64,000 nucleotides of DNA from Aquiflexum gelatinilyticum. GTDB taxonomy: Bacteria; Bacteroidota; Bacteroidia; Cytophagales; Cyclobacteriaceae. The notes under the pieces were generated by a model that saw only the letters and a list, made by a program, of their open reading frames with translations, had not been told where the DNA came from and ran no database searches. Where the stretch lies: positions 186,001-250,000 of the forward strand of contig NZ_JANSUY010000003.1 in assembly GCF_024741135.1 (NCBI RefSeq), in the 5' to 3' direction. Position numbers and translations under genes: made by a program. Of the stretch, positions 4,324-28,245 are shown piece after piece (the stretch's first letter is position 1; each line of letters begins with the position of its first letter).

Positions 4324-4324
4324 A

Positions 4325-4347: not shown

Positions 4348-4354
4348 AAACAAT

Positions 4355-4720: not shown

Positions 4721-4730
4721 ATGAGTGATT

Positions 4731-5552: not shown

Positions 5553-5588
5553 GGTTTGGTCATCGAATAAATTCCAATTTACTCATTT

Positions 5589-7410: not shown

Positions 7411-7426
7411 TATTTCAACTTAAATA

Positions 7427-8887: not shown

Positions 8888-8985
8888 GGATATTTTACTT
8901 TGGATTGCGAAATTAAAAAAATACCGACAATTTGACAGGTTTTATTCTATCATTTCTGTTAATTGAATTCTTTTGTCAAAAAAAA

Positions 8986-9006
8986 CTCCTTCCGTAGAGG
9001 AAGGAG
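8986..9006 (-). terminator. Terminator after the S41 peptidase gene
   Basis: CTCCTTCC at 8986-8993 pairs with GGAAGGAG at 8999-9006 across a five-base loop. On the minus strand the stem is followed by a run of seven or more T (plus-strand A run at 8979-8985). It lies 12 bases past the peptidase stop and before the miaB start. Confidence 0.85.
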
Positions 9007-9017
9007 CTCGATTTATT

Positions 9018-10433
9018 TTAGTGCTTGACCTTTAGATTGGTTTGATCATCAATTAATCTCCCAAACCTTGTCTGTTTTTCTATAGAACTTCCCATGTCAA
9101 TCCTCTCTATCATTTGGATTCTGTCAGGTGAAGGCGTTCCTGTTATCTGTTCCAATGTGAGTTTCAACAAAAATTCATTCGTATCCCCCAATGGCAATAA
9201 GGTAGGTTGTGACAGCTCGTTGCCTTGAATGTTAGGCTGGAATCCTGAAGCGTAGTCAGACTGATCGTTTTTGTTGAATGATTGAGATACAATCGGCAGA
9301 AGACCATATTTGTTGGAAGGGTTTTCTTCATCTTCGATGGCGATGGAACCAACGTTTTTTCCGTAAGTCAATCCTCCAACCATAAATACTTCCATATATG
9401 GTCTAAGTCCATTGATAATCAGTTCGCTTGCAGAAGCTGTTCTGGAAGAGGTTATGATATAAACTTTGTTTCCCGACAGTATCGGACCAAGGTTTTGAGG
9501 CTTACTTTCAAATTTGATCTGTACATTTTTCAATTGATCAAATCCCATCAGGTAACTGTTGTATTTAATTTTGGTAAAAACATCATCGTTGGTCACATTA
9601 GGAGCGATCAAGCTTGCCAAGTTTACAGCACTTGATTGGTATCCTCCTCCATTATATCTAAAATCTAAAATCAGGTGGTTGATGCCTTCTGCTTTGAATT
9701 TTGCAAAGACAGCATCCATTTCATCATCATACCTAGTTGCTTGGCCTTCAATGCCCGGAGCAAAGAAATGATAAACCACGTATCCGATTTTTTGATTCCC
9801 AATGGTGTAAATGGAGTCAAGGAAGTTAGGGTCTTCAGAAAGCACTGATGTCGTTAAGTCCACGGGAGTCTGTGCGACATAATTAGAAGAGCTTTCATTA
9901 TATCTCAAATAGGAAATAGAATGAGCCTCTGACCTTTGTCCTAATATTTCTTGGTAGTTGTCCAGTGTCATCCTCACACCATTGATGTGCGTGATCAAAT
10001 CGCCACGTTTGAGGCCTGCGGTTTCTGCAGGGCTACCTTTTTTTGTGTAGGTAATAAAAGCAATTACATTGTTGTTTGTACTGCTTTCGCGGGCAAGTGT
10101 GATTTCATATCCCGCTTCTTTGGATACTCCTGAGAGGCTATTGATCAATTCCTGATAATCCGGATAAATGACGGAGAACCTATCGGTAGGTCTAAAAAGT
10201 AAAGATTCAAAATAATCTTCGGGGTCAGATTCAAGAGAAATGGGATTTCTCATATCATCAAGCCACAGGTAAACTTCATCCATTACTTCTTGAATCCAAG
10301 TATTTACTTTGGCATTGGCAGACAGTTCTGGTACAGGATCATCGGTTTTGTCTTTGCAGGCGTTTAAGAATATCAACGCCCCAAAAACCAGGGCAAGACC
10401 GGCTTTATTATAGGATAGGTATTTCATAAGCAT
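9018..10433 (-). CDS. S41-family (C-terminal processing) peptidase, lipoprotein
   Basis: A 471-residue exported serine peptidase. The signal ends in a lipobox with Cys26 (IFLNAC). A PDZ-like domain covers about 100-180 (GSPAETAGLKRGDLITHING), followed by the S41 catalytic domain with NGGGYQ near 261-266, the presumed nucleophile Ser334 in TASASE and a candidate general-base Lys359 in YGKN. A second ATG two codons in (10427) is an equally good start. Substrate unknown; such lipoproteins are common in Bacteroidota and act in the periplasm or at the outer membrane. It is a single-gene unit with its own terminator. Confidence 0.93.
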   Translation of the reverse strand: MLMKYLSYNKAGLALVFGALIFLNACKDKTDDPVPELSANAKVNTWIQEVMDEVYLWLDDMRNPISLESDPEDYFESLLFRPTDRFSVIYPDYQELINSLSGVSKEAGYEITLARESSTNNNVIAFITYTKKGSPAETAGLKRGDLITHINGVRMTLDNYQEILGQRSEAHSISYLRYNESSSNYVAQTPVDLTTSVLSEDPNFLDSIYTIGNQKIGYVVYHFFAPGIEGQATRYDDEMDAVFAKFKAEGINHLILDFRYNGGGYQSSAVNLASLIAPNVTNDDVFTKIKYNSYLMGFDQLKNVQIKFESKPQNLGPILSGNKVYIITSSRTASASELIINGLRPYMEVFMVGGLTYGKNVGSIAIEDEENPSNKYGLLPIVSQSFNKNDQSDYASGFQPNIQGNELSQPTLLPLGDTNEFLLKLTLEQITGTPSPDRIQMIERIDMGSSIEKQTRFGRLIDDQTNLKVKH

Positions 10434-10533
10434 TTACTTTAATGGATTGATCTCTAGGTTCTAACAAAGAACTAAACGCAGATATCAGTCAAATTGATTT
10501 GAAATATAATTGGTATTTTCAAATTATTGGGAC

Positions 10534-11244
10534 TCAATAAGAGGTATTGATCGTAATGTCGGAGGTCTTACTGTCAAGGAGTTTCCCTTTTTCGCATTTC
10601 AATACACGATAGGGATATTTTCTCAATAAATCATGGTTGTGGGTCGCCATCAGGATAGCAGTGCCTTCGTTATTGATTTCCTGAAAAAGTTTAAAAATCC
10701 CATCTGCGACATCTGGATCTAGGTTTCCTGTTGGTTCATCCGCCAAAACTATGGAAGGTTGATTGATAAGAGCCCTTGCAATGACAACCCGCTGCTGTTC
10801 ACCTCCCGAAAGTTGATGGGGCATTTTGGTGGCTGCATCTGCAAGACCAACTTTGAGGAGAACTTCAATCATCCTGTTTTTCATTTTTTCTTTATCCTTC
10901 CATCCAGTAGCCTTCATGACAAAGAAAAGGTTTTCGGCTATGGACCTGTCTGGGAAAAGCTGAAAATCCTGAAATACTATCCCAAGCTTTCGTCTGAGGT
11001 AGGGGACTTCGCTTTTCTTGATTTTTGAAAGTTGAAAACCAACTATTTCAGCTTGTCCCATTTTAAGGGAAAGATCGGCATAAAGGGTTTTCAAAAGAGA
11101 GCTTTTTCCACTTCCTGTCCTTCCGATTAAAAAAACGAATTCATCTTTTTCTATTGAAAAATTAACATTCTGCAGTACTGCATCCAATCCCTGAAAAATA
11201 CAGGCGTCTTTGACCTCAATTACCGCATCCTTTCCAAATTCCAT
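10534..11244 (-). CDS. ftsE: FtsE-type ABC transporter ATPase
   Basis: Cytoplasmic ATPase that, with the membrane protein FtsX, controls peptidoglycan hydrolases during division. The ABC motifs are complete: Walker A GRTGSGKSS, Q-loop DFQLFPDRS, signature LSGGEQQR, Walker B VLADEPTGNLD and the switch His in ATHNHD. 236 residues fits FtsE. No ftsX is next to it; the upstream neighbour is a 67-codon gene whose TAA overlaps this ATG by one base (TAATG). LolD or another MacB-type ATPase is the main alternative; the sequence GNLDPDVADGIF favours FtsE. Confidence 0.85.
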   Translation of the reverse strand: MEFGKDAVIEVKDACIFQGLDAVLQNVNFSIEKDEFVFLIGRTGSGKSSLLKTLYADLSLKMGQAEIVGFQLSKIKKSEVPYLRRKLGIVFQDFQLFPDRSIAENLFFVMKATGWKDKEKMKNRMIEVLLKVGLADAATKMPHQLSGGEQQRVVIARALINQPSIVLADEPTGNLDPDVADGIFKLFQEINNEGTAILMATHNHDLLRKYPYRVLKCEKGKLLDSKTSDITINTSY

Positions 11245-11447
11245 TAAATCTCAATTTTTTGTGTTTTGCCAAATGGCAGTTCCCTTATTAAGGTCTCGAG
11301 TTCTGTTTCCTTTCCTTCCAAACCGAATTTCTCAATATTCTTCAAGGGTCTGTCTGCCCTGAAGTAAGCCACCAAGACAAAATTATCATCTCTGATCTGT
11401 ATATAATCCGGGATTTTGGCTTTTCCTTTTACTTTTAAGATATACAT
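11244..11447 (-). CDS. Small hypothetical protein coupled to ftsE
   Basis: I place the start at the ATG at 11447 (MYILKVKGKAKI), giving 67 residues; an upstream in-frame ATG at 11522 would add a 25-residue basic stretch of low likelihood. The protein is soluble, beta-rich at the start (YIQIRDDNFVLVAYF) and ends in LPFGKTQKIEI. The one-base overlap of its stop with the ftsE start points to translational coupling. No family recognised. Confidence 0.75.
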   Translation of the reverse strand: MYILKVKGKAKIPDYIQIRDDNFVLVAYFRADRPLKNIEKFGLEGKETELETLIRELPFGKTQKIEI

Positions 11448-11550
11448 AAGTTTGTTTATTTTCTCTAATAGGTATGGAAAACAACTTTTTCCCGGATTCT
11501 GTTTTTTTTTGATTCTAATCAAACTGGGGGACTATGTTATTGAAACGAAG

Positions 11551-11581
11551 GAACCGGATTATGTTGCCAATGGTCCGGTTC
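11551..11581 (-). terminator. Possible terminator after the transaldolase-like gene
   Basis: GAACCGGA at 11551-11558 is complementary to TCCGGTTC at 11574-11581 with a 15-base loop, 16 bases past the aldolase stop on the minus strand. The following minus-strand sequence is only moderately T-rich, so termination is likely but weak. Confidence 0.5.
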
Positions 11582-11596
11582 ATTATTTTAAGTCAA

Positions 11597-12256
11597 TTAC
11601 TTTCCTGCTGCTTTAGCATGGTCTGCAAGGAAAGTCGCCAACCCTGAATCCGTGAGCGGATGATTCAACAATCCCAAAATAACTTTCAAAGGACATGTCA
11701 CTACATCTGCACCGAGTTCGGCACATTTGATCAAGTGCATGGTATGCCTTACTGATGCCGCCAAAACTTGGGTGGCATAGCCATAATTTTCATAAATATT
11801 GACAATCTGATCGATCAGCTCTAAGCCATCGTAAGAGATGTCATCCAGTCTTCCGATAAATGGTGAAACGTAGGTTGCTCCGGCTTTTGCGGCAAGAAGT
11901 GCCTGGCCTGCTGAAAAAATCAAAGTACAGTTGGTTCGGATACCTTCATTGGAAAAGTATTTGATGGCTTTTATACCGTCCTTGATCATCGGGATTTTTA
12001 CCACGATCTTGTCATCGATTTTTGCAAGTTCTTTACCCTCTTTGATCATACCTTCAAAATCTGTGGCAATGACTTCAGCACTGACATTGTCATCCACGAT
12101 ATCGCAGATGGCTTTGTAATGTGCTCTAACTTTATCTTCTCCGCTGATGCCTTCTTTGGCCATCAAGGATGGATTGGTGGTGACGCCGTCCAATACGCCA
12201 AGATCGTAGGCTTCCTTGATATCATTCAGGTTGGCGGTATCAATAAAGAATTTCAT
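11597..12256 (-). CDS. Transaldolase / fructose-6-phosphate aldolase family (TalC/FSA)
   Basis: Class I aldolase of the short transaldolase family, 219 residues (E. coli FSA has 220). The start MKFFIDTAN, the TTNPSL motif at 26-31, the Schiff-base Lys87 in VVKIPM and [14 protein letters not shown] are all family marks. It either transfers dihydroxyacetone in the pentose-phosphate pathway or splits fructose-6-phosphate; sequence alone does not settle this. It is transcribed alone, with a promoter match just upstream. Confidence 0.93.
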
Positions 12257-13134: not shown

Positions 13135-13977
13135 ATGAATATTTCCTTTTATCTAGCCATGAGAAAGGTCGTTTGGAGCCTTCTGGTATTGGTTTTTATC
13201 CTTGCTTACTCTTCATGTGTACCTAATGAAAAAATTATGTACTATCAAAATCTTGAAGGAAACAAAGCTATTCAGGATGAGGAATTGATCAGCTATGAGT
13301 TGCCTGAGTATAGATTGCAGTTCAATGATATCATTGATATTCAGATCCAAACTGTGGAGCAGATTCTTGAAAATGGTATTACTTCCAAAATTCAAAATGA
13401 AGCCAACAATGCTGTTTTTGGTCAGATTGCCCAAAGTGGAGGAGATATCTATTACATGACAGGCTATACCATCGACAAACACGGCTATATCAGAATGCCA
13501 CTTCTTGGAGAGATCCAAGTCAATGACAAGACCCTAGATGAAGTCAGGGTGATTGTAGAAGAAGCATTAAAAAAGTATGTGACCTCTGAGATTTTTGTAC
13601 GGGTCAAACTTGGCGGGATCAGATTTTCAACTTTGGGGGAATTCCGCAGACCCGGAAAGTATGTTGTTCTACAGGATAGATTGACTATTTTTGAAGCTAT
13701 CGCTCAGGCAGGCGACATGACTACCGTAGCCAAAAGAGATGAAATTCTATTGATCAGACAATATCCTGATGGCACCAAATTGCATAGAATCAATCTTAAC
13801 GACAGACAGATTATTCAGACTCCTTTTTACTTCATTCAGCCAAATGATCAGATTTACGCCGAACCTTTGAAGGCAAGAGAAATAGGTACGGGAGAAAACA
13901 CCGCCCAAACTGTTGCTCTGATCCTTTCATCTGTTACGGCTGTCGCTTTGATTTTGAATCTTATTCTACAAAATTGA
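13135..13977 (+). CDS. Wza-like polysaccharide export outer-membrane lipoprotein
   Basis: Outer-membrane exporter of capsule or exopolysaccharide. The lipobox is AYSSC (Cys28 from this start). The Poly_export domain begins at YRLQFNDIIDIQI, and the SLBB-type region contains HGYIRMPLLGEIQV and LGEFRRPGKYVV. A C-terminal hydrophobic helix (VALILSSVTAVALIL) fits the membrane-spanning helix of Wza-type proteins. Starts possible are ATG 13135, ATG 13159 (MRKVVWSLL, the cleanest signal peptide) and a TTG at 13129. Its TGA overlaps the start of the next gene, a Wzc-like kinase, so export and kinase are made together. Confidence 0.92.
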   Translation: MNISFYLAMRKVVWSLLVLVFILAYSSCVPNEKIMYYQNLEGNKAIQDEELISYELPEYRLQFNDIIDIQIQTVEQILENGITSKIQNEANNAVFGQIAQSGGDIYYMTGYTIDKHGYIRMPLLGEIQVNDKTLDEVRVIVEEALKKYVTSEIFVRVKLGGIRFSTLGEFRRPGKYVVLQDRLTIFEAIAQAGDMTTVAKRDEILLIRQYPDGTKLHRINLNDRQIIQTPFYFIQPNDQIYAEPLKAREIGTGENTAQTVALILSSVTAVALILNLILQN

Positions 13978-16406
13978 TGAGTAAAAGCAATCCTTATCCA
14001 TTTATTCCAGATCCTTTTATGCCACCCCATGAGGATGACATTGAATTAAAGGTTGTTCTTTTTAATTACCTGAAATATTGGCCATTTATTGTGACGAGCA
14101 CCTTGGTCTGTGTTTTGGCAGCATTCCTTTTCAACAAATACGCAACCCCGGTATACCTTGTCCAATCTTCGGTTATCATAACAGAAGAACCCCAAGCTTT
14201 GGGATCAGAAATTTTTGATGCAGTAGGAATGATGCCGATCAAAAACAACGTCGAAAACGAAATAGGGATTCTCAAATCCTACACCTTGGCGGAAGAAGCC
14301 ATTTTGGAACTTGGCCTTGATGTTTTTTATTTTACCGATGATTTATTGAGCAGCATACAGGTCCATTCTGGGATTCCGCTGAATGTAGAAGTGGATTGGA
14401 CCCATCCTCAATTGGTCAAAGGCAAATTTGTCATTGAGGTTTTGGATAATCAGACCTTCAGCATTGAACCGGACGGAGATGATTTTGAAATTTTCAACCC
14501 ATCTGATCCTTTTTACAAAAAAGAAATCAATAGCATTCCCGAATTAAAACCGGTTTATGCTTTTGGAGAAAATATTGAATCAGAATTCCTTAAAATTAAG
14601 ATTGAAAGCATTGATGCTAAAGAAGGCGATAGAATCTTCTTCCAATTGGTGGATACCCCGTCGTTGGCACTTTTTTTAAAAGATAAAATCAGCGTCTCAC
14701 CCATCAACAAACAGGCTTCTATTTTGAATATTTCATTTGAAACGCCCGTCAGAAGGATGGGTGAGGAATATCTTAACAAGCTGATGGAAGTTTACCTTCA
14801 AAGAGAGTTGGATGAAAAAAACAAAGCATCAGAAAATACCATTCGTTTTATCGAAGATCAACTAAGCGGTATCACTGATTCATTGAGTTTTTTTGAAGGA
14901 AGCCTTGAAAAATACAGGTCTGAAAACAAAATTTTTAATCTGAGCGAAGAAGGTTCCCAGATTTTCCAAAGACTGCAGGAGTTTGAAAAAGACAAATCCC
15001 AAGCCGAAATCAACCTTAAATATTATCAGACACTTCAAAATTACATCAACAGGGATGATATTGAAGAAATAGTCGCTCCTTCCATAATAGGAAATACAGA
15101 TCCTCTGTTACAGTCTTTGGTGGTAAGCATCAGTGAACTACAAGCCGAGAAAATGAGACTTTCTAATAATTTTTCGGAAGAAGCTCCACCTATCAGGGAA
15201 ATCAATTCCCAAATAAGGATGACCAAAAAGGCCCTGCAAGAAAACATTGCCTCTTCTATCCGCAATACCAATACCTATCTTCAAGAAGTCAATTCTCAAA
15301 TAAAAAGAGTGGAGAGAGAAATCAATTCACTTCCTGAAACAGAAAGAAGGCTATTGGGAATACAAAGGAAATTCACTGTCAATGAAAACATTTATGTTTA
15401 CCTGCTCCAAAAAAGGGCGGAATCTGAAATCACAAGGGCATCCAATATGCCTAAAAATGCAATCTTAGATCTTGCCAGAGCCGGACAGATGCCTGTTTTT
15501 CCAAAGAAAATTGTCAATCTGGTGATTGGTCTGGCCATAGGTCTGTTTTTTTCCATCGGTTATATCTCTATCCGTGATTTCCTGAACACCAAGATCGAAG
15601 ATCCGAAGGAACTTGAAAAACAAATCAATACACCACTAATCGGAATGATTGGAAGAAATCAAGGCAATGACCCCAAACCGGTCTTGAATAATCCAAGGTC
15701 ATCGGTGACAGAATCATTCCGAAATATCCGGGCCGATATGTCCTATCTCAGCCCAAACAAAGAGCACTTGACAATCCTTTTTACATCGAGCATTTCGGGC
15801 GAAGGAAAGACTTTTGCTTCAGTCAATATGGCATCGGTATATTCCCTATTGGGCAAAAAGACCTTGTTGGTAGGCTTGGATCTTAGAAAACCAAAAATTG
15901 CAGAAGAGTTTGGACTGATCAATGACAAAGGTATGAGTACTTGCTTGAGCATGAATATGCCATGGAGAGAGGTTGTAAAACAGACAAAATACGAAAACCT
16001 TGACATCATCCTTTCTGGGCCGATTCCACCAAATCCTGCAGAACTTTTGCTTCAAAACAAATTTTCCAAAATCATGGCTGAAATCAAGCAGGAATATGAA
16101 GTGATTATTTTGGATTGTCCTCCGGCCGGATTGGTTTCTGAGACCAAGGAACTTTTTAAACATTCAGATGTGAATTTTTTCATTTTCAGACAGGGATTTT
16201 CCAATAAAAGCAACATCCAGATATTGAATAATCTGATCGAAAAAGGAGGGGTTTCCAAAATTTATGCTATTCTCAACGACGTCCACATAGACAAAGGATA
16301 CGGATTCGGCTATGGTTATGGCTACGGCTACGGTTATTCCAGCCATTATGGCTACCATGACGAAGTACAGTTGCCTTGGTGGAAGCGTGCGATGAGACGG
16401 GGGTAA
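13977..16406 (+). CDS. Wzc-like polysaccharide co-polymerase / tyrosine autokinase
   Basis: Inner-membrane protein of 809 residues that sets chain length and drives export with Wza. It has an N-terminal Wzz domain with a first membrane helix near 35-55, long coiled-coil periplasmic parts with a GNVR-type region, and a second helix near 510-530. The cytoplasmic BY-kinase domain has Walker A SGEGKT near 607, Walker A' VGLDLRKP and Walker B ILDCPPAG near 711. It ends in a tyrosine cluster (GYGYGYGYGY) for autophosphorylation. The ATG at 13977 overlaps the preceding TGA (TGATG). No partner phosphatase gene is adjacent. Confidence 0.95.
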   Translation: MSKSNPYPFIPDPFMPPHEDDIELKVVLFNYLKYWPFIVTSTLVCVLAAFLFNKYATPVYLVQSSVIITEEPQALGSEIFDAVGMMPIKNNVENEIGILKSYTLAEEAILELGLDVFYFTDDLLSSIQVHSGIPLNVEVDWTHPQLVKGKFVIEVLDNQTFSIEPDGDDFEIFNPSDPFYKKEINSIPELKPVYAFGENIESEFLKIKIESIDAKEGDRIFFQLVDTPSLALFLKDKISVSPINKQASILNISFETPVRRMGEEYLNKLMEVYLQRELDEKNKASENTIRFIEDQLSGITDSLSFFEGSLEKYRSENKIFNLSEEGSQIFQRLQEFEKDKSQAEINLKYYQTLQNYINRDDIEEIVAPSIIGNTDPLLQSLVVSISELQAEKMRLSNNFSEEAPPIREINSQIRMTKKALQENIASSIRNTNTYLQEVNSQIKRVEREINSLPETERRLLGIQRKFTVNENIYVYLLQKRAESEITRASNMPKNAILDLARAGQMPVFPKKIVNLVIGLAIGLFFSIGYISIRDFLNTKIEDPKELEKQINTPLIGMIGRNQGNDPKPVLNNPRSSVTESFRNIRADMSYLSPNKEHLTILFTSSISGEGKTFASVNMASVYSLLGKKTLLVGLDLRKPKIAEEFGLINDKGMSTCLSMNMPWREVVKQTKYENLDIILSGPIPPNPAELLLQNKFSKIMAEIKQEYEVIILDCPPAGLVSETKELFKHSDVNFFIFRQGFSNKSNIQILNNLIEKGGVSKIYAILNDVHIDKGYGFGYGYGYGYGYSSHYGYHDEVQLPWWKRAMRRG

Positions 16407-16789: not shown

Positions 16790-17917
16790 ATGAAAAAAAT
16801 TCAAATGGTGGACTTGAGGTCCCAATATGAAAAAATAAAGGAAGAAGTCGACGCTGCCATGCAGGAAGTCATTGATCAGACTGCATTTATCAATGGCCCA
16901 CAGGTTAGGCTTTTTGCTGATGAATTGAAGCAATATCTGAATTGTAAATATGTAATTCCCTGCGGCAATGGAACGGATGCATTGCAGATTGCGATGATGG
17001 CTTTGGATTTTAAGCCTGGAGATGAAGTCATCGTTCCTGCATTCACCTATATCGCAGCAGTAGAGGTTATTGCACTCTTGGGTTTGAAACCGGTTTTTGT
17101 AGATGTGGATCCGGATACTTTTCAGATTGATGCCTCCCAAATAGAACCAGTGATATCTGATAAGACCGTAGCGATTGTCCCTGTCCATTTGTTTGGACAA
17201 TGCTCCGACATGGAATCCATTTTAAAAATTGAAAAAAAACATACCTTGAAAGTCATAGAAGATGCCGCCCAATCCATTGGGTCAGTTTATACTTTCTCTG
17301 ATGGCAACCAAGCCTTTTCAGGCACGATGGGTGAAATAGGCACAACATCTTTTTTCCCATCCAAAAACCTGGGTTGTTTTGGCGACGGCGGTGCAATGTT
17401 TACCAATGACCATGATCTTGCAGAGAAGATGCGGATGATTTCCACCCACGGTCAAAAAAAGAAGTATCACCATCATTCTTTGGGAGTAAATTCACGTTTG
17501 GATACCATACAGGCCGCAATGCTTCGGGTCAAGCTCCGTTATTTGGAACAATACCAAAAAGCCCGAAATGAAGTCGCATCGGCCTATGATTTGGCTTTTG
17601 AAAACCATCCCCATATTTCCATTCCAAAGCGTGATTCTAATTCCACCCATGTGTTTCACCAATATACAGTCAAGCTGAATGGTGTAAACAGGGAGAATTT
17701 TTCAAAACATCTTGCTTCCTTCGGAATTCCGACCATGGTGTATTATCCGGTTCCGGTTCATCTTCAGGTTGCTTACCAAAATCATGGGTTTCAAGAAGGA
17801 GATTTCCCTGTTGCTGAAAAACTCAGCCATGAAGTAATTTCCCTTCCCATCCATACGGAAATGGATCCCGGGCAATTAGAATTGATTATAAATACCATCA
17901 ACAGCTTTTTCCAATGA
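16790..17917 (+). CDS. DegT/DnrJ/EryC1/StrS aminotransferase, WbpE/WlbC type
   Basis: PLP enzyme that puts an amino group on a nucleotide-linked keto-sugar. Asp158 in IEDAAQ contacts the PLP ring nitrogen and Lys192 in FFPSKNLG is the Schiff-base lysine; GNGTDAL binds phosphate. 375 residues is typical. The next two genes, both overlapping by four bases, encode WbpD-like and WbpB-like enzymes, which makes UDP-2-acetamido-3-oxo-glucuronate the likely substrate (the WbpE step). That substrate is inference from context; the enzyme class is certain. Confidence 0.93.
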
Positions 17918-18498
17918 AACTTTATTTTGCCCACGAATCTGCCTATATCGATCAGGGCTGTGAAATAGGAGAGGGGACCAAAATCTGGCATTTCAGCCAT
18001 ATCATGGCCAATTGCAAAATAGGAAAGTATTGCAACATCGGTCAGAATGTGGTGGTTTCCCCCGATGTGATCCTTGGTAACAATGTCAAAGTCCAAAACA
18101 ATGTCTCTATCTACACCGGGGTAACCTGCGAAGATGATGTGTTTTTGGGCCCTTCGATGGTATTTACCAATGTCATCAATCCCCGATCTGCCATCAGCAG
18201 AAAATCCGAATACCTCTCCACCAAAGTCGGCAAAGGTGCGACCATCGGTGCGAATGCGACCATAGTCTGTGGCAATACGATAGGTTCTTACGCTTTCATA
18301 GGCGCCGGGGCAGTAGTGACCAAGGACGTAGCCGATTATGCTTTGGTGATGGGCAATCCTTCTCGTCAGATGGGTTGGGTAAGCGAATATGGACACAAGC
18401 TTGCCTTTGATTCTGAAGGAAAAGCATATTGCAGGGAAAGCGGAGAGGAGTATTTTTTGCAAAATGGCCAAGTCCGAAAATCAGCGAGCCAATCATGA
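17914..18498 (+). CDS. Left-handed beta-helix sugar N-acetyltransferase, WbpD/WlbB type
   Basis: Acetyl-CoA dependent trimeric hexapeptide-repeat enzyme of 194 residues. The N-terminus has [13 protein letters not shown], characteristic of the WbpD/WlbB group, followed by hexapeptide turns ([31 protein letters not shown]) and the [10 protein letters not shown] loop, then [13 protein letters not shown]. It would acetylate the 3-amino group made by the preceding aminotransferase. It overlaps that gene by ATGA and the following oxidoreductase gene by ATGA. Confidence 0.93.
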
Positions 18499-19457
18499 AA
18501 AACTTTGCATTGATAGGGGCAGCGGGGTATATCGCGCCAAAGCATATGAAAGCCATCAAAGAAACCGGAAATCAAATGGTGGCAGCATTTGATAAGTTTG
18601 ATTCTGTTGGGGTAATGGACAGCTATTTTCCAAAAGCTTCATTTTTTACCGAATTTGAGAGATTTGACAGGCATATGGAAAAACTCAAAAGGGAAGGGGA
18701 TCCTGTCGATTATGTCAGCGTATGTTCTCCAAATTACCTGCATGATTCGCATATCAGGTTTGGGTTAAGACTTGGAGCGGACGTAATCTGCGAAAAACCG
18801 CTGGTTCTCAATCCTTGGAATATGGATGGGCTAGAGTCGGTTGAAAAGGAAACAGGCTCTAAAGTATTCAACATCCTCCAACTGAGACTTCACCCTGCGA
18901 TTTTGGAACTCAGACGCAAAGTGATGGCAGAACCTTCCGATAAAATCCATGATATCGACCTCACTTATATTTCCTCCCGAGGCAATTGGTACTATACCTC
19001 ATGGAAAGGTGACGAAAGTAAATCCGGAGGCATCGCAACCAATATCGGGATTCATTTTTTTGACATGCTGGTCTGGATTTTTGGGAAAGTCAAAACCAAT
19101 ATTGTACATATTCAGAACCATGACAGGGCCTCGGGTTTTCTAGATTTGGAAAGGGCAAGAGTCAGGTGGTTTTTGAGCATTAACCAAGAAACATTGCCCG
19201 AATCTGTATTGTCTAAAGGAAAAACCATTTACCGGTCTCTCACAATAGAAGGAAATGAAATAGAATTCAGTGAAGGTTTTGTTGACTTACACACACAGAG
19301 TTATTCAGAGATTTTAGAGGGAAAAGGATTTGGGTTGGAAGCTGCAAGAAGTTCTGTGGAGTTGGTCCATGATATCAGATTACAGAAAGGAGTAGGATTG
19401 GTGGGGGATTATCACCCGTTTTCCAAAAAACCATTGGCAGACCATCCCTTTTTGTGA
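18495..19457 (+). CDS. Gfo/Idh/MocA-family oxidoreductase, WbpB/WlbA type
   Basis: NAD-dependent sugar oxidoreductase expected to oxidise C3 of UDP-GlcNAcA, the step before the aminotransferase. I start at the ATG at 18495 ([18 protein letters not shown]), which overlaps the acetyltransferase stop by four bases and gives 320 residues, the WlbA length; the Rossmann motif is GAAGYIA. The catalytic EKPL motif follows the CSPNYLHD stretch and [13 protein letters not shown] is the family C-domain signature. The three genes form a tightly coupled unit for a 2,3-diacetamido uronic acid nucleotide. Confidence 0.92.
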
Positions 19458-19560: not shown

Positions 19561-20208
19561 ATGGACAATCCTCAGTATCTAAAGAAGATCTTCCTAATCG
19601 GCTATTCCGGACATGCCTATGTGGTGTTGGATAGTATATCGGAGCAAGGCTTGACTGTAGGGGGTTATTTTGCGAAGGATTATAACGTAGACAATCCATA
19701 TGAACTTGACTTTTTTGGAGATGAAATGGCAGAAGATGTCGGTCAGATTTTGACAAATCATTACATTTTTCCCTGTATTGGAGACAATAAGGTCAGGGAA
19801 AGAGTTATTGGCTTTATTGCTAGCAAAGGTTTTTCACAATTGGCAATTATCGATAAAACTGCCTTGGTTTCCGAAAAAGTAACTATCGGACTTTCCACTT
19901 TTGTTGGAAAGAATGCATGCATAAATTCGCTGGTAAAGATTGGTAAAGGAGTCATCATCAACACAGGCGCCATCATCGAACATGAATGTTTGATCGGAGA
20001 TTTTTCGCATGTCGCTCCCAATGCTACCTTGGCTGGAAACGTAACTTTGGGCAAGAGAGTCTTTTTTGGTGTTGGGGCAGTCGCAAAGCAGGGAATTACT
20101 ATAGGCGACAACAGTGTCATCGGTGCAGGTTCAGTGGTGATTTCGGACATTCCTGCCAACGAGGTATGGGCAGGGAATCCGGCGAGGAAGATGAAGGAAT
20201 TAGGCTAA
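19561..20208 (+). CDS. NeuD/PglD-like sugar O- or N-acyltransferase
   Basis: A 215-residue hexapeptide acyltransferase with the PglD-type N-terminal domain (KIFLIGYSGHAYVVLDSI) that binds the nucleotide-sugar, then a left-handed beta-helix with NACINSLVKIGKGVIINTGAIIEHE. The conserved catalytic His is in IIEHECLIGDFSHVAPN. It ends VWAGNPARKMK, the usual tail. It lies 103 bases after the diamino-sugar trio and before the flippase; whether it acetylates a second sugar or modifies the repeat unit is not decidable here. Confidence 0.9.
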   Translation: MDNPQYLKKIFLIGYSGHAYVVLDSISEQGLTVGGYFAKDYNVDNPYELDFFGDEMAEDVGQILTNHYIFPCIGDNKVRERVIGFIASKGFSQLAIIDKTALVSEKVTIGLSTFVGKNACINSLVKIGKGVIINTGAIIEHECLIGDFSHVAPNATLAGNVTLGKRVFFGVGAVAKQGITIGDNSVIGAGSVVISDIPANEVWAGNPARKMKELG

Positions 20209-20339: not shown

Positions 20340-21593
20340 TTGGAAAAAGATTACATTAAGAATATTTTTACTGTTGCTGGGGGCGTGTTTATGTCCCAAA
20401 TACTTACGATATTAATTTCGCCAATACTTACAAGGATATTTTCATCTGAGAGTTTTGGAATAATTGCTGTTTTTTTGGCTATTGTGAATGTTTTAACTGT
20501 CATTGCAACATTTAGAATTGAAAATATTTTATTCTTGCCTGATACCAAAGAAGAGGCTTTTTCTTTGTTAAACCTTCTTATTAAAACAGTAATAATTTTT
20601 TCGATCATTTTTTGCTTAGCTAGTTTCTTTTTGCCTCTTCAATTTTCGATTTTATTGTTTGGTAAAGACCAAAGTCATTGGTTTTATTGGATACCCCTTC
20701 TAGTAGTTTTAAATGGATTATTTTACGGTTTTAGAAACTGGTTACAAAGCATAAAAAAATATAGAACAACCACTTTTTGGGGAATAGTTAAGTCAATTAT
20801 TTTAAATGGAATATTACTCATTGGAGGTTATTTTTCTTCATCTCCTGAAATATTTTTAATTGCGAATATCATAGCTCAAACAATTGAAACTGGTTTTTTA
20901 TTTATCCAAGTTATAAAAAACGAAGGTTCAAATTTCTCAATTCGTCCAAGGCATGAATTCAATCAATTATTTTTTAAGTACAAAAATTTCCCCAAGTATG
21001 CGTTACCAGCTGATTTATTGAATGTTTATGCGAATCAAAACCCCATAGTATTATTGGCTTATTTTTTTAATTCTGGTACAGTTGGTTTTTTTTCATTGAC
21101 CCAAAGGGTTATTGGTATTCCTATCAAATTAGTCACTTCTTCTACTTCTGAGGTTTTTAAACAAAAAGCATCAGAGGAGTATAATTTGAAAGGGAATTGC
21201 AAAAAATCTTTTTTTGATACTTTTTCATTCCTTTTAACGGTATCAATACTTCCAACAATAATAATTGTTGCATTTTCACCTTTTTTGTTTGAATTGGTTT
21301 TCGGACCGGAGTGGATTGAAGCAGGGGTCTATGCTAGGTATTTATCAATTATGTTTTTTTTTAGATTTTGTATTAGCCCTCTGGGTTTTACTTTGATGAT
21401 TTCCCAAAAACAGAAGTGGAATTTAATTTGGCAATCTTTTTTATTAATTGTCACTAGTTTGGGGATTTATACCGGGGTAATTTTTGATTCTCCAAGAGTA
21501 AGTATACTATCTTTTTCGATAGTATATAGTTTTATGTATTTGATTTATTTTTTTATTTCCTTGAGGGCGGCTAAAGGGTTCAAAGAAAAATGA
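20340..21593 (+). CDS. Wzx-type oligosaccharide flippase
   Basis: Polytopic inner-membrane protein of about 12 helices, 417 residues, of the MOP/polysaccharide-synthesis superfamily that flips the lipid-linked repeat unit. The N-terminus KNIFTVAGGVFMSQILTILI followed by SPILTRIFSSESFG is typical of the family. It begins with TTG; the first in-frame ATG (20391) would cut into helix 1, so TTG is preferred. It is the first of three AT-rich genes and overlaps the next by four bases (ATGA). Confidence 0.9.
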   Translation: MEKDYIKNIFTVAGGVFMSQILTILISPILTRIFSSESFGIIAVFLAIVNVLTVIATFRIENILFLPDTKEEAFSLLNLLIKTVIIFSIIFCLASFFLPLQFSILLFGKDQSHWFYWIPLLVVLNGLFYGFRNWLQSIKKYRTTTFWGIVKSIILNGILLIGGYFSSSPEIFLIANIIAQTIETGFLFIQVIKNEGSNFSIRPRHEFNQLFFKYKNFPKYALPADLLNVYANQNPIVLLAYFFNSGTVGFFSLTQRVIGIPIKLVTSSTSEVFKQKASEEYNLKGNCKKSFFDTFSFLLTVSILPTIIIVAFSPFLFELVFGPEWIEAGVYARYLSIMFFFRFCISPLGFTLMISQKQKWNLIWQSFLLIVTSLGIYTGVIFDSPRVSILSFSIVYSFMYLIYFFISLRAAKGFKEK

Positions 21594-22894
21594 AAAGCAA
21601 TTTTTGGAATAATAAAGTATACATAGAAAATTTCATATTAGTATGTCTAATTGTATTTAAAAGCACCCAAGCTTCCGTTCTTGCCATTGCACCTGAGACA
21701 ACAATAATTGTTTTAATCTACTCAGGATGGATTTTTTATAAAAGAAGAATCAAGATTGACCAGTTTATTCTTGTACTTGTAGGATTATATTTCGCATTGA
21801 ATTTATTTTATTATATAAGTTTTGGGAGTAATAATTTTTTCCTCAGCTTTTATATTTTACTTAAAATGCTGTATGCTTACATCACAATAAAAATTGTAAG
21901 AGAAAGTTTCTTTGCTATTTATGAAAAATTAATCTATTTCCTTGTTCTTGTTAGCCTTCCACTATTTCTATTTCAACTTATTAATTATGAACTTCTATTC
22001 AAAATTGTAGGTGTTTTACAGAATAATATTTCAATTCTTGAATATCGAAATGATAGATTAGCGAATATTTTCATTTTTACTCTTGAAAGTAATGGCTCTC
22101 TAACAAGGAATTCAGGATTTGCTTGGGAACCTAAAGGATTTTCAAATTTTTTATTGATTGCTATCTTGATAAATTTGGTGTCGAATAGATTTTCAATAAA
22201 CAAAAGGCTAATTGTTTTTTATTTGGCTATTGTTACCACTTTATCAACTACAGGGTTCTTAGTCGCATTTGTTATTTTTCCTATATTTTTTGTTTTGAAT
22301 ACAAAGAGTAAAAAAATAGTGTTCTATTTTCTGTTTTTTTCTGCTTTGGCCATTTATGTTTTAAGTCTTGAAATTGGTTATGAAAAAATAAAGAGAGAAA
22401 TTGATGGAAGGGATAGGTATATAGAGTTATTGGAAGACACAAGAGAGTTTGAGACTCGATCTCTCGGTCGTTTTCCTTCTTTTATTCTAGATTTCAATGA
22501 CTTTTTAAAAAGGCCTGTCTTTGGTTATGGATTTAACAGAGAAGAAAGGACTCAAAGTGAATATACCAAACTTGTAAGGGTAAATGGGGTGTCTGATATT
22601 TTAGCTGTTTATGGGATAGTGGGATTTTCAATCATTTTTTATTTTACATATAAGAGTTTTAGTTCCTATTTGAAAATTTATAATTCAAGGGGCAGTTATT
22701 TGATTTTATCTATGGTAGGAGTAATTTATTTTGCTTCAGCCTTAACCTCACACCCTTTTTGGATGATCTTTTATTTTTTATTTTCTATTAATTTAAGGTC
22801 TTATAATTTAAAATGTCTTTACGAATTAATTATTCATGAAAAGAGTCTTAATAGTATCAAACTCGAATTTAAAGAACGACCCGAGACCGTATAG
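21590..22894 (+). CDS. Wzy-type O-antigen/exopolysaccharide polymerase candidate
   Basis: A 434-residue inner-membrane protein with about ten to twelve hydrophobic helices and one large extracytoplasmic loop near residues 260-320 (EIDGRDRYIELLEDTREFETRSLGRF), followed by the PVFGYGFNRE stretch typical of O-antigen ligase/polymerase proteins. Wzy sequences diverge strongly, so the call relies on topology plus position right after Wzx. Its last 19 codons overlap the next gene by 59 bases in another frame. Confidence 0.78.
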   Translation: MKSNFWNNKVYIENFILVCLIVFKSTQASVLAIAPETTIIVLIYSGWIFYKRRIKIDQFILVLVGLYFALNLFYYISFGSNNFFLSFYILLKMLYAYITIKIVRESFFAIYEKLIYFLVLVSLPLFLFQLINYELLFKIVGVLQNNISILEYRNDRLANIFIFTLESNGSLTRNSGFAWEPKGFSNFLLIAILINLVSNRFSINKRLIVFYLAIVTTLSTTGFLVAFVIFPIFFVLNTKSKKIVFYFLFFSALAIYVLSLEIGYEKIKREIDGRDRYIELLEDTREFETRSLGRFPSFILDFNDFLKRPVFGYGFNREERTQSEYTKLVRVNGVSDILAVYGIVGFSIIFYFTYKSFSSYLKIYNSRGSYLILSMVGVIYFASALTSHPFWMIFYFLFSINLRSYNLKCLYELIIHEKSLNSIKLEFKERPETV

Positions 22895-23963
22895 GCAAAT
22901 CTCAGAATTGAAAAAAAAATTCTATATAAGTTCCTTAGGATTATCACCATCTGGACTTGAAAATGAATTCTTTCAACTTAAAAAAAGATCAATCCATAGG
23001 GAGATTTTCCATTTATTTTTCCTAAAAATGGGGTTGGACAGATTCTATTTTTGGGACAATCAAGTTTTAGAGGTTTTAAAAAAAATAGATGATCTTGAAT
23101 TTGACTTGATTATTATAAACGAGATCAAATCTGCTCCGCTTCTAAAGAGATTAAAGAAGAGTAGAACCAAGATAATTTTGGATGCTCATGAATACAGTCC
23201 TGAAAATTTCGAGGATGATTGGCTTTGGAGATTTTTATATAAAAAATACTACCAGAGGCTTTGCGATAGATATCTTAATCAATTTGACATTATTACTACT
23301 GTCTCAGTTGGAATCGCCAATTTATATAAATTAAATTATGATGTAGATCCTATTGTAGTTAAAAGCGCATCAGAATATTACGAAAAACTTGAGCCACAGC
23401 CTGTAGGTGAAAAAATAAAAATCATACATCATGGAATAGTTAGTTCTTCAAGGAGCTTGGAATTGTTGATTCAAATAGCTCGTGAATTAGGAGATGGTTA
23501 TGAATTATATCTAATGTTGGTTTATCGAAGTAGCACCAAGCATATTTTTAGGGATTTAATAAGCAAATCAAAAGATTTGAACAACGTGAAATTTTTAACT
23601 CCGGTTAAGCGAGAACAGATAATTGAATTTTGTAATCAATTTGATATAGGGATTATATTTTTCCCTCCCAAAAATTCAAATCTAAAACATGCATTACCAA
23701 ATAAATTTTTTGAAATGATCCAATCAAGACTTGTTTTATCCGTAGGGCCTGACGAAGAGATGTCCGGAATTGTAAAAGATTATTCTTTGGGCGTTGTTTC
23801 TGAATCTTGGGATCCGAAAGTAATGGCAAGAAGTATCTCAGGACTAAATAAGGATCAAATTTTCAAACTAAAGCTAAACGTTCATGATTCATCAAAGTAT
23901 CTATCTTCGGACGGTGAAATGGAAAAATTCAATAATGCTATTGAAAGTTTAATTTCCAAATAG
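22836..23963 (+). CDS. Glycosyltransferase, family 4-like
   Basis: A 375-residue cytoplasmic GT-B fold protein. It begins MKRVLIVSNSNLKNDPRPYRQI, a pattern common in polysaccharide-locus glycosyltransferases, has a middle DAHEYSPENFEDDW (DxHE-type motif), and a C-domain with the GIIFFPPKNSNLKHALPNKFFE sugar-nucleotide region. Donor and acceptor are unknown. The start is inside the end of the Wzy-like gene (59-base overlap) and the stop overlaps the next gene's GTG by one base. Confidence 0.85.
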   Translation: MKRVLIVSNSNLKNDPRPYRQISELKKKFYISSLGLSPSGLENEFFQLKKRSIHREIFHLFFLKMGLDRFYFWDNQVLEVLKKIDDLEFDLIIINEIKSAPLLKRLKKSRTKIILDAHEYSPENFEDDWLWRFLYKKYYQRLCDRYLNQFDIITTVSVGIANLYKLNYDVDPIVVKSASEYYEKLEPQPVGEKIKIIHHGIVSSSRSLELLIQIARELGDGYELYLMLVYRSSTKHIFRDLISKSKDLNNVKFLTPVKREQIIEFCNQFDIGIIFFPPKNSNLKHALPNKFFEMIQSRLVLSVGPDEEMSGIVKDYSLGVVSESWDPKVMARSISGLNKDQIFKLKLNVHDSSKYLSSDGEMEKFNNAIESLISK

Positions 23964-25036
23964 TGAAATCCATCCACATCGACATCATTCATCCTGCGAA
24001 TGTGCATTATTTCAAGCATGCGATTTCTAATTGGAAAGCAATGGGTTATGAGCTTATCATTACCTGCAGAAATAAAGAAATTACTTATGAATTATTGGAT
24101 TTGGAAGGCTTGGATTATGTTCCAATGGGAAAGAATCCAAAGTCCGTTTTGGGGAAATTCCTGTTTCTGTTTAAATGTGAATGGAATATATTTAAGCTTT
24201 ACCTAAAGAAAAGACCTGAAATTGCTTTAAGTTTTGCAGCTTCCTATGTGGCCCATATGTCATGGATTTTTAGGTTGCCCCACATTTCTTTTGATGATAC
24301 AGAGCATGCCTGGTTGAACAGAAAACTTTATCTGCCATTTACTGACCTTGTCCTTAATCCTGAAAGTTACCTTCTCGATTTGGGACCCAAGCAATTCAAA
24401 TTTAAAGGGCATATGGAGCTTTTTTACCTGAACAAGAAATATTTTAAACCTGATGCCGGCATCTTTTCTGAATTGGGGATCAATGAAAATTCACCTTTCA
24501 TATTCCTGAGGTTTGTGTCTTGGGGAGCCTTGCATGACCAAGGGCAAATGGGTTTTTCCGACGGATATAAAATGGATTTGGTCAAAAAGCTGAGTTTGGA
24601 TTACAGAGTTTTTATTTCTTCTGAGGGGGTTTTACCTCCTGAACTTCAGCCTTTTCAAATAAGAATTAAACCTGACAGAGTTCATCATGTTTTATATTAT
24701 GCCTCATTGTTTATAGGTGAGGGTGCCACAATGGCTTCTGAATGTGCTGCTTTGGGTACCCCTGCCATTTATGTGAACTCACTTGACGCGGGTACTTTGC
24801 AAAGACAGGAATCAGATGGATTGATAATCAATAAGCGATATCAAGATGGTACACTTGAAAAAGCATATGAAATTTTAAATGATGAACAAGCCAAAATCCG
24901 ATTGAAAGAAAAAGTAAAAGCATTAGATCAGGAAAGGTATAACCTGACCGATTTTTTAACCTGGTTGGTGACAGAATATCCTGAATCCAAGAAAAAATTG
25001 CTTCTTGGAGAAGTTGATCCCAAAACCAAATTTTAG
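23963..25036 (+). CDS. DUF354-family protein, GT-B glycosyltransferase-like
   Basis: A 357-residue protein of the DUF354 family, related in fold to UDP-GlcNAc 2-epimerase and GT-B transferases. The start SIHIDIIHPANVHYF and the segment FDDTEHAWLNRKL are family marks, and near 250 is YYASLFIGEGATMASECA with the nucleotide-binding Glu. It begins with GTG, whose G is also the last base of the preceding TAG stop. DUF354 genes often lie beside WbpG-like amidotransferase genes, as here; the reaction is not established. Confidence 0.85.
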   Translation: MKSIHIDIIHPANVHYFKHAISNWKAMGYELIITCRNKEITYELLDLEGLDYVPMGKNPKSVLGKFLFLFKCEWNIFKLYLKKRPEIALSFAASYVAHMSWIFRLPHISFDDTEHAWLNRKLYLPFTDLVLNPESYLLDLGPKQFKFKGHMELFYLNKKYFKPDAGIFSELGINENSPFIFLRFVSWGALHDQGQMGFSDGYKMDLVKKLSLDYRVFISSEGVLPPELQPFQIRIKPDRVHHVLYYASLFIGEGATMASECAALGTPAIYVNSLDAGTLQRQESDGLIINKRYQDGTLEKAYEILNDEQAKIRLKEKVKALDQERYNLTDFLTWLVTEYPESKKKLLLGEVDPKTKF

Positions 25037-25041
25037 AGCAT

Positions 25042-27081
25042 ATGTGCGGCATCTTTGGTCTATTCATCAATCCTGGATCTGATTTTTCTGAGAGCGATAT
25101 CAGGAAACTGACTTCAAAACTTGCCCTTTTGAGCGAGTCAAGGGGAAAAGATTCCTCAGGAATGGCATTTGTCAACCAAGAAAGCAGGCAAATCGAGGTG
25201 ACCAAAGGGGATGTCAGAATCAGAAAATTGATTTCGACCAAGCCATTCAAAACTTCCCTTTCAGATTCATTGGAGAGATACAGGAGCCTTCATGGCTCTT
25301 TTTCGGTTTTTGGCCATGCGAGATTGGTCACCAACGGGTCACAGTTGAAGGAGGAAAACAACCAACCTGTCATCAAAGATGGTAATCTTCTCATCCACAA
25401 CGGCATTATTGTCAATGCTGATTCACTTTGGGAAAAGTACAAGGAATTGAAACGGGAGTTTAAAATCGATTCGGAGATTATCCTCGCTCTTTTGCATCAA
25501 GCAATTTTGCAAAACCCAAGTGATTTGGGATTGGCCATCAGAAATTCCCTTTCCCAATTGGAAGGCACTTATTCCATTCTGGCTTTTATACCGCGGATTG
25601 GGAAATACATTTTAGCCACCAATACCGGTTCCCTGTATTGCCTTACTGACAGCAAAAAATTCCTGATTTTTGGTTCAGAAGCATATTATCTGGAGAGTTT
25701 GATAAAATACCTGCCTTCAAAAATATCAGAATCAGCCAAGCTAGCAATTACGAAAATCAATCCCGGTGAAGTATTGCTTTTTAGCATACCTGATTTGGAA
25801 TTAGAAAAGCTTGATTTTGGTAAAGAACCAAAAAAGAAGATCAAATCTGAAGAAAATCTTCCTTACATGGTCACCGTATCAACGGTCAAAAACCCTGATT
25901 TTGGAAAGGAAATCGTCATCGAGCCGGAGCTAAATTTCAATAGAAATAGGGAAAGGCACCTGTTTGGATTATTGGAAAATCAGTCTGAAAAGATCGAAAA
26001 GATAAAAAGGTGTAGCAGGTGTGTCTTGCCCGAAACGTTTCCTTTCATAGATTTTGATCAGGCGGGAGTTTGCAATTACTGCAGAAACCACAAACCCAAG
26101 CCCAAAGCAAATAATCAGGAATACTTGCGACAGCTTCTTGAGCCCTATAAAAGCAATTCTTCTAAACCTGATTGCATTGTTCCTTTTAGTGGAGGGAGAG
26201 ACAGTACTTTTGCCTTGCATATGGTCAAAAAAGAGCTTGGAATGAATCCCATTGCATTTACTTATGATTGGGGGATGGTCACCGATCTGGCAAGGAGAAA
26301 CATATCAAGGGTTTGTGGGAAGCTCGGGGTGGAAAATATTGTGGTGGCGGCTGACATACATTGGAAGCGGAAAAACATCAGAAAAAACATAGAGGCTTGG
26401 CTGCGCAAACCTGCCTTGGGAATGATTCCTCTTTTTATGGCCGGTGACAAATACTTCTTTTATTATACAGACAGGCTCAAAAAGCAAACAGGTATCAACC
26501 TGAATATCTGGGGAGTCAATCATCTTGAAAATACTGATTTCAAGGTGGGTTTTGCAGGATTGAAACCGGAGTTTGAAAAACAGCGGATATTTTCCCTTTC
26601 TGCTTTCAACCAATTGAAGCTTTTTGGGTTTGTTGGAAAGGAAGTTCTTTCAAATCCAACATATCTCAACCAATCCGTTTTGGATAGTCTTGGCTCTTTT
26701 GCGGTAAGGTATTTGGCCCCCAAAAAGGACTATATTCAATTATTTGATTACTATCCTTGGGATGAAAATGAGATAAACAAACTGATTTTGTCAGAATATG
26801 ATTGGGAAAAATCCCCCGATACCAATTCCACTTGGAGGATAGGGGATGGTACGGCGGGTTTTTATAATTATATCTACCATACTGTTGCGGGTTTTTCGGA
26901 GGTCGACACTTTCAGGTCAAACCAAATACGGGAAGGAATGATCACAAGAGAAGATGCATTGAAACTTGTCTATGAAGAGAACAAGCCTAGATTCGAAACT
27001 ATCCGTTGGTATCTTGAGATAGTAGGCATTGATTTTCAGGAAGCAATCCAAAAAATCAATGGCATTCCAAAGCTATTTTGA
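25042..27081 (+). CDS. Fusion: class II glutamine amidotransferase + WbpG/PseA-like N-acetyl-sugar amidotransferase
   Basis: A 679-residue two-part enzyme. Residues 1-250 are a class II glutaminase with nucleophile Cys2 (MCGIFGLF), the HARLVTNG Arg loop and HNGIIVN. From 324 the protein is of the WbpG/PseA amidotransferase type: a zinc-ribbon-like pair C324xxC327 and C344xxC347, an ATP-pyrophosphatase P-loop PFSGGRDST at about 381-389 and GVNHLENTDF. WbpG-type enzymes turn an N-acetyl group of a diamino sugar into acetamidino, normally with HisH- and HisF-like ammonia partners encoded nearby; here the ammonia source is built in. The layout copies asparagine synthetase B, but the synthetase half is different. 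Confidence 0.88.
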   Translation: MCGIFGLFINPGSDFSESDIRKLTSKLALLSESRGKDSSGMAFVNQESRQIEVTKGDVRIRKLISTKPFKTSLSDSLERYRSLHGSFSVFGHARLVTNGSQLKEENNQPVIKDGNLLIHNGIIVNADSLWEKYKELKREFKIDSEIILALLHQAILQNPSDLGLAIRNSLSQLEGTYSILAFIPRIGKYILATNTGSLYCLTDSKKFLIFGSEAYYLESLIKYLPSKISESAKLAITKINPGEVLLFSIPDLELEKLDFGKEPKKKIKSEENLPYMVTVSTVKNPDFGKEIVIEPELNFNRNRERHLFGLLENQSEKIEKIKRCSRCVLPETFPFIDFDQAGVCNYCRNHKPKPKANNQEYLRQLLEPYKSNSSKPDCIVPFSGGRDSTFALHMVKKELGMNPIAFTYDWGMVTDLARRNISRVCGKLGVENIVVAADIHWKRKNIRKNIEAWLRKPALGMIPLFMAGDKYFFYYTDRLKKQTGINLNIWGVNHLENTDFKVGFAGLKPEFEKQRIFSLSAFNQLKLFGFVGKEVLSNPTYLNQSVLDSLGSFAVRYLAPKKDYIQLFDYYPWDENEINKLILSEYDWEKSPDTNSTWRIGDGTAGFYNYIYHTVAGFSEVDTFRSNQIREGMITREDALKLVYEENKPRFETIRWYLEIVGIDFQEAIQKINGIPKLF

Positions 27082-27162: not shown

Positions 27163-28245
27163 ATGAGTTTCAACGCATATCCGGATTCAGAAATTTTACC
27201 ACAATCGGAGCTCCTTCCGGAAAGAAAGGAACTTTTTGAGCTTCCAATTAAGGCCAGGTTTTTTATCCAAAAACATGTTGAGAAATCGGATTCCAAGATA
27301 CTGTATCTCAATGATCAAAAGGCCCTTTTTTCGCCCAATTCATCCACATTCTCATGTCTTGTGAGTCAATTAAGGCTGAATGATTATCCATATTGTGACC
27401 AATTTTTGTCAGCAGCCAATCAATCACTTTCAATTGGAGGTTTGTTGATAGGATCTGTGGAGACATATACCAACAGGAAAATTCAGATAAAGTCAAAGTA
27501 CCCTGCTTTTCTTGGCAATTTAGCGTACAATTGGGATTCCGTTCTCCATCGGTTTATCCCGAAAATGCCAATTACTGGTAGAATTTACCGAATGGCGTAC
27601 AAGGGAAAAAGTAATTTGATGTCTGAGGTGGAGGCATTGGGTCGGATATATGCATCCGGTTTTGAAATGATCGATCAGCAAGAAATAGGAGATAGGTTAT
27701 ATTTTGTAGCAAAAAAAATAATCAATCCATCCAAAAATGCCCATCCTACATTTTGGCCTATCGTCAGACTTAAAAGGATTGGAATAGGAGGGAAGGAGTT
27801 TGCTGTGTACAAATTGAGGACAATGTATCCTTATTCTGAATACCTTCAGGATATGGTTTACCAAAAGAACAACCTTTCGGAAGGAGGAAAGTTTAAAGAT
27901 GATTTCAGGATTTCAAGCTTGGGGAGGTTTTTACGGAAATTCTGGTTAGACGAAATTCCAATGATTTGGAACCTAATTAAGGGAGAAATAAAAATCGTTG
28001 GAGTCAGACCATTGAGCAAGCAATACTTTAACCTTTATCACAGCGAGTTAAAGGAAAAAAGGATCCATTTTAAACCCGGGTTGATTCCTCCTTATTATGC
28101 TGATATGCCAAATACTTTGGAGGAAATCATGGAGTCCGAAATGCGGTATCTGGAGGCATATTCCAAATCGCCGGTATATACCGACCTCAGCTATTTTTTC
28201 AAGATTTTGAAAAACATTCTTTTCAAAGGAGCTAGGAGTAGGTAG
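27163..28245 (+). CDS. Sugar-phosphate transferase (PF02397 type) with replaced N-terminal part
   Basis: 360 residues. From about 200 on it is a bacterial sugar transferase (phosphoglycosyl transferase) that would start repeat-unit synthesis on undecaprenyl phosphate: FAVYKLRTM, the catalytic pair Asp263-Glu264 in WLDEIP, and KIVGVRPL. The usual re-entrant membrane helix just before the KLRTM region is missing. Instead residues 1-195 form a soluble domain that looks like the second half of a SAM methyltransferase fold (LSIGGLLIGSVET, LGRIYASGFEMIDQQ) without a visible SAM glycine motif. It closes the polysaccharide locus. Confidence 0.85.
   Translation: MSFNAYPDSEILPQSELLPERKELFELPIKARFFIQKHVEKSDSKILYLNDQKALFSPNSSTFSCLVSQLRLNDYPYCDQFLSAANQSLSIGGLLIGSVETYTNRKIQIKSKYPAFLGNLAYNWDSVLHRFIPKMPITGRIYRMAYKGKSNLMSEVEALGRIYASGFEMIDQQEIGDRLYFVAKKIINPSKNAHPTFWPIVRLKRIGIGGKEFAVYKLRTMYPYSEYLQDMVYQKNNLSEGGKFKDDFRISSLGRFLRKFWLDEIPMIWNLIKGEIKIVGVRPLSKQYFNLYHSELKEKRIHFKPGLIPPYYADMPNTLEEIMESEMRYLEAYSKSPVYTDLSYFFKILKNILFKGARSR

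Follow-up and report, generated by a model that had tools for sequence, protein, structure and literature searches.

The locus described here raises the question whether a single protein can take the place of the three-protein WbpG/HisH/HisF machine in the formation of acetamidino sugars, which are found on the surfaces of pathogens and of environmental bacteria. In the window, i.e. the whole 64-kb stretch of DNA that was analysed, a polysaccharide cluster carries an unbroken frame of 679 codons, from ATG to stop, in which a class II glutaminase half is followed by a WbpG-like amidotransferase half. We read the product as a self-sufficient, glutamine-dependent N-acetyl-sugar amidotransferase (acetamidine synthase) whose substrate would be a nucleotide-linked diacetamido uronic acid, and give this reading a probability of about 0.7.

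Table 1. Parts of the fused gene and of the surrounding polysaccharide cluster, in positions of the window.
Feature	Position	Strand	Basis
Fused glutaminase/WbpG-like amidotransferase, 679 aa	25042..27081	+	Frame, profiles, alignment, model
Class II (Ntn, Cys2) glutaminase half, residues 1-260	25042..25821	+	GATase_7/GATase_6; GlmS Z 24.7; invariant residues
Linker, residues 261-315	25822..25986	+	pLDDT dip to 60 at 261-270; shorter in the compact homologues (604-605 aa)
WbuX/WbpG-like synthetase half, residues 316-679	25987..27078	+	TIGR03573 1e-44; hhalign E 3.6e-49; 8WEX Z 24.1
Tetracysteine motif C324-C327...C344-C347	26011..26082	+	Invariant in 77 homologues; equals zinc site in LpNASAT (PMC10607449)
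PP-loop SGGRDS, residues 383-388	26188..26205	+	Invariant in 77 homologues
Wzc-like chain-length/kinase protein, cluster start	13974..16406	+	PF13807, PF13614
WbpE-like sugar aminotransferase	16790..17917	+	PDB 3nyu WbpE, 337 bits
WbpD/WlbB-like hexapeptide N-acetyltransferase	17914..18498	+	PDB 3mqg, lipopolysaccharide acetyltransferase, 226 bits
WbpB-like sugar 3-dehydrogenase	18495..19457 (probable start 18495; ORF from 18429)	+	PDB 3oa2 WbpB, 390 bits, E 9e-116
PglD-like acetyltransferase	19561..20208	+	PF17836, Hexapep
Wzx-type flippase	20340..21593	+	PF13440
Wzy/O-antigen ligase-type polymerase	21590..22894	+	PF04932
Family 4-type glycosyltransferase	22836..23963	+	Pfam/NCBIfam profiles
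DUF354 protein directly upstream of fusion	23963..25036	+	PF04007 5e-21
Initiating sugar-phosphate transferase-like protein, just downstream of fusion	27163..28245	+	TIGR03025 6e-24, below cut-off

The motifs named in the original prediction are all present where it had placed them: MCGIFG (1-6), HARLVTNG (92-99) and HNGIIVN (119-125) in the glutaminase half, the two cysteine pairs and PFSGGRDST (381-389) in the synthetase half. The first half has the residues of a class II (Ntn) glutaminase, with C2 directly after the initiator methionine, R94, N120-G121 and D143, and Pfam places GATase_7 (92-217, 4e-11, over the cut-off) and GATase_6 together within residues 88-217. Matches of the NCBIfam models for GlmS, PurF and AsnB are weaker and fall on the N-terminal half only. 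The second half is matched at residues 322-669 by TIGR03573 (WbuX, N-acetyl sugar amidotransferase) and, in a profile-profile comparison with 41 stand-alone WbuX proteins, aligned with a probability of 100 (hhalign, E 3.6e-49). It carries the PP-loop pattern SGGxDS of NASAT and the tetracysteine pattern CxxC-Xn-[GN]xCxxC (C324, C327, G342, C344, C347), a motif described together with its zinc for the NASAT structure 8WEX (PMC10607449).

The AlphaFold2 model, built on a 77-sequence alignment, has two domains with a mean pLDDT of 93.6 and a pTM of 0.93, values which suggest that the two halves are held in a fixed mutual arrangement. The glutaminase half of the model superposes on GlmS over 234 residues, and residues 317-679 have the NASAT fold, matching the Legionella pneumophila enzyme 8WEX over 313 residues with an rmsd of 4.2. 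The predicted fusion of a glutaminase with a WbpG-like enzyme is therefore borne out by profiles, profile-profile alignment and model alike, with a qualification as to the WbpG type: the second half is homologous to WbuX and WbpG, but the fusion scores 153.4 bits on TIGR03573 (hmmscan; 155.5 bits in the genome search) and does not reach the curated cut-off of 203.2, so that it belongs to a sister branch and is not a strict member of the family. Its substrate or product may for the same reason have changed.

An ordinary asparagine synthetase is ruled out as the identity of the protein, since the Asn_synthase domain PF00733 gave no Pfam match at E <= 0.001 and TIGR01536 aligns with residues 2-240 only, at 40 bits against a cut-off of 267; the second half is WbuX/WbpG-like instead. 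Of the asparagine-synthetase-like design proposed in the original prediction, the WbpG-type second half stands, while the glutaminase is nearest to GlmS and PurF and not to AsnB. Structural alignments with asparagine synthetases (AsnB/ASNS) are essentially limited to the glutaminase half, and among the structural matches listed there was neither a superposition of the whole chain on AsnB nor any solved chain aligning across both halves together.

Homologues that span both halves over the full length are encoded by other members of the genus and family and at 80 loci in contigs of other genomes, and a chance frame or an assembly join is excluded by the presence of such homologues, equal in length, in many genomes. 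The records bear about 19 phylum-level labels, including Bacteroidota, Pseudomonadota, Myxococcota, Planctomycetota, Ignavibacteriota, Acidobacteriota and Nitrospinota, although many of them are metagenome bins and any single label is for that reason not firm. Across the 77 aligned homologues there is no variation at C2, R34, R94, N120, G121 and D143, at the four cysteines or in SGGRDS. In a quick tree of the synthetase halves all 52 fused rows lie on one side of a single branch; as its SH-aLRT support is merely 80, a single origin of the fused enzymes is likely but unproven. Compact homologues, whose linker is shorter and whose length is 604-605 aa, were also found (L172 and L173, the former scoring 140 bits on TIGR03573). 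In two metagenome loci (L037, 10001-12037, and L085, 10005-12053) the halves lie in separate frames, through either sequence error or a real split.

WbuX-like ATP-pyrophosphatase domains were observed in other fusions as well. Four lie inside NRPS proteins (L167, 4968-9161, minus strand; L168, 4522-8541, minus; L169, 4191-6698, minus; L171, 2442-6707, plus), after the AMP-binding core and before the carrier domain, an arrangement resembling an interrupted adenylation domain; in L171 and L169 the domain precedes the C-terminal part of the AMP-binding domain. Three of these four form one branch in the tree. Another locus (L170, 4664-6952, minus strand) encodes a protein of 762 aa in which a group 1 type glycosyltransferase is fused to a WbuX domain, with an AsnB-like gene adjoining.

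If the fused enzyme supplies its own ammonia, helper genes should be dispensable next to it. For comparison, stand-alone WbuX genes that score above the cut-off of the family were taken from 392 genomes of one phylum, that of the window organism; hisH and hisF were sought with the HisH and HisF of the window's own genome as queries, and a locus was regarded as testable if 3 kb or more of sequence flanked the gene on each side. The two genes were present within 3 kb at 27 of 34 testable stand-alone loci and at none of the 68 testable fused loci, the pattern foreseen in the original prediction (Fisher p 1.5e-18, a value that ignores the relatedness of loci). Within the Bacteroidota alone the count for fused loci was 0/23. 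Profiles built from the HisH and HisF proteins found, which are more sensitive than phmmer, added no hisH or hisF near fusions; a weak HisH-like match of 30 bits lies 6 kb from the fusion in L036. At three loci (L062, L091, L133) the genes occur farther from the fusion, each time beside an additional stand-alone WbuX. The sole real exception is L065 (10001-13100, plus strand), where hisH and hisF directly follow a fusion with intact glutaminase residues at the end of the contig, beyond which a stand-alone WbuX may lie.

The absence of such partners claimed for the window holds for the whole genome as well. This genome (99.99% complete) encodes one HisH, adjoining hisA, and one HisF, adjoining hisI, both of which evidently serve the histidine pathway; dedicated partners of the HisH2/HisF2 type were found neither in the window nor, beyond the histidine genes, anywhere in the genome, and a pair hidden just outside the window is thereby ruled out. 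Stand-alone WbuX genes and hisH/hisF are not always found together: six loci (L142, L145, L148, L152, L157, L158) have a stand-alone WbuX over the cut-off and no hisH/hisF within about 6 kb, and four fused loci (L059, L060, L066, L084) contain a stand-alone WbuX and no hisH/hisF in the stretch examined. In the first of these four (3180-12040, plus strand) two fused genes, of 603 and 679 aa, and the stand-alone WbuX lie within 22 kb.

As to the substrate, the cluster begins with Wza/Wzc-like export genes and continues with an aminotransferase, an acetyltransferase and a dehydrogenase, then flippase, polymerase and glycosyltransferases; last come the fusion and the gene for a sugar-phosphate transferase. 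Homologues of WbpB, WbpE and WbpD, identified by their top-scoring PDB matches (Table 1), share a cluster with the fusion, as these enzymes do with WbpG in the Pseudomonas aeruginosa system. WbpB, WbpE and WbpD together install the acetamido group at position 3 of UDP-GlcNAc3NAcA, the group on which WbpG acts in P. aeruginosa. A TviB/WbpA-like UDP-GlcNAc 6-dehydrogenase and WecB-type 2-epimerases are encoded on another contig of the same genome. In P. aeruginosa O5, formation of the acetimidoyl group at C-3 of ManNAc3NAmA is ascribed to WbpG (PMC10607449). The likely substrate here would accordingly be a nucleotide-linked 2,3-diacetamido-2,3-dideoxy-uronic acid (GlcNAc3NAcA or its 2-epimer), provided via the neighbouring WbpB/WbpE/WbpD homologues. 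WbpB homologues are present in 10 of 86 fused loci, with none in the other 76 within the stretch examined, so other members of the fused group must act on other sugars. The DUF354 protein, a possible glycosyltransferase acting on the amidinated sugar, is encoded in 19/86 fused loci versus 3/35 stand-alone loci.

In the mechanism that we propose, the N-terminal Ntn glutaminase, with Cys2 as nucleophile, would free ammonia from glutamine, and the ammonia would move inside the same chain, presumably by a tunnel, to the C-terminal ATP-pyrophosphatase half. That half would adenylate the carbonyl oxygen of the sugar N-acetyl group, and displacement of AMP by ammonia would then give the acetamidino (N-acetimidoyl) group. 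The chemistry assigned to the synthetase half is derived from homology and from what the authors of 8WEX themselves inferred.

The main rival to an acetamidine product is amidation of a uronic acid carboxylate, by which the same ATP-pyrophosphatase chemistry, directed at C-6 of for example GlcNAc3NAcA, would yield a sugar carboxamide (uronamide). Such chemistry has been proposed for AsnB-like sugar amidotransferases, the product of WbpB/E/D does present a carboxylate, and 2-acetamido-3-acylamino-glucuronamide is known from O-chains of Vibrio and Pseudoalteromonas (PMC3210612); the score of the synthetase half under the WbuX cut-off would also fit. We nevertheless consider a uronamide unlikely, as the PF00733 domain is absent, the homology of the second half to NASATs extends over its whole length and includes the zinc tetracysteine, and separate AsnB genes in some fused clusters (L175 and L176 among them) suggest a different acceptor for the fusion.

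An acceptor other than a nucleotide sugar, such as a lipid-linked intermediate or a small metabolite, could be imagined from the B12/radical-SAM gene that is adjacent in some distant loci (L079, L083, L087) and from the occurrence of WbuX-like domains in NRPS modules. It is highly improbable for the present gene, since glycosyltransferases, a flippase and a sugar transferase mark the window and many other fused loci as polysaccharide clusters. Least probable of all is a glutaminase half that is merely regulatory or dispensable, the ammonia being free or coming from a separate HisH-HisF pair: one such pair follows the fusion in L065 and the genome of the window has its housekeeping pair, but every catalytic residue of the glutaminase is invariant in the 77 sequences and the helper genes are missing near the fusion at all 68 testable loci.

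A self-sufficient acetamidine synthase therefore remains our preferred reading, and the fusion is apparently a widespread and undescribed alternative to the three-protein machine. No description of it was found in the literature searched, which does not in itself prove that none exists. The parts are already known, and what is new is their combination and the apparent loss of dependence on HisH and HisF. We lean, by a little, towards the wider view of a bifunctional sugar acetamidine synthase subfamily of single origin, lacking a name in current annotation and recorded under about 19 phylum labels, which would replace WbpG-HisH-HisF and whose internal channel would have evolved independently of those of AsnB and HisF. 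In PLSDB such genes are named "7-cyano-7-deazaguanine synthase", "hypothetical protein" or "glucosamine 6-phosphate synthetase". If the reading is correct, genome annotation could replace these labels and predict acetamidino sugars where hisH and hisF are missing. According to the NASAT structure paper, knowledge of the structure and function of the enzyme is scant (PMC10607449). A one-chain enzyme would be much simpler to produce and to assay than a complex of three proteins, and would make conversion of ATP to AMP, the adenylated amide and the source of ammonia directly testable.

Compared with known systems, the fusion is closest to the TIGR03573 proteins WbpG, WbuX, PseA and LpNASAT, with which it shares the SGGxDS PP-loop, the zinc tetracysteine, the overall fold, the C-terminal region and the polysaccharide context. 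The sampled stand-alone members differ in being about 370-420 aa long, in having no glutaminase and, for the most part, in having hisH and hisF adjacent, while the fusion lies below the family cut-off and on one side of its own branch; the P. aeruginosa WbpG system has dedicated HisH2/HisF2, which were not found for the fusion. AsnB and AsnB-like sugar amidotransferases also unite an N-terminal class II glutaminase and an ATP-pyrophosphatase-type synthetase in one chain, but the synthetase half of the fusion is NASAT-like and not of the PF00733 type. In Tannerella forsythia a 605 aa protein named AsnB, Tanf_01265, has been proposed to carry out the acetamidino modification of pseudaminic acid (PMC6120980); it could be a true AsnB or a compact form of the fusion. 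GlmS and PurF have the glutaminase halves nearest to that of the fusion by profile and by structure; the synthase half, in contrast, is a sugar isomerase in GlmS and a phosphoribosyltransferase in PurF. PurL (FGAM synthetase; PMC3815217) is likewise a single chain in which a glutaminase serves the ATP-driven conversion of an amide to an amidine, there with a C-terminal class I glutaminase and an unrelated synthetase fold.
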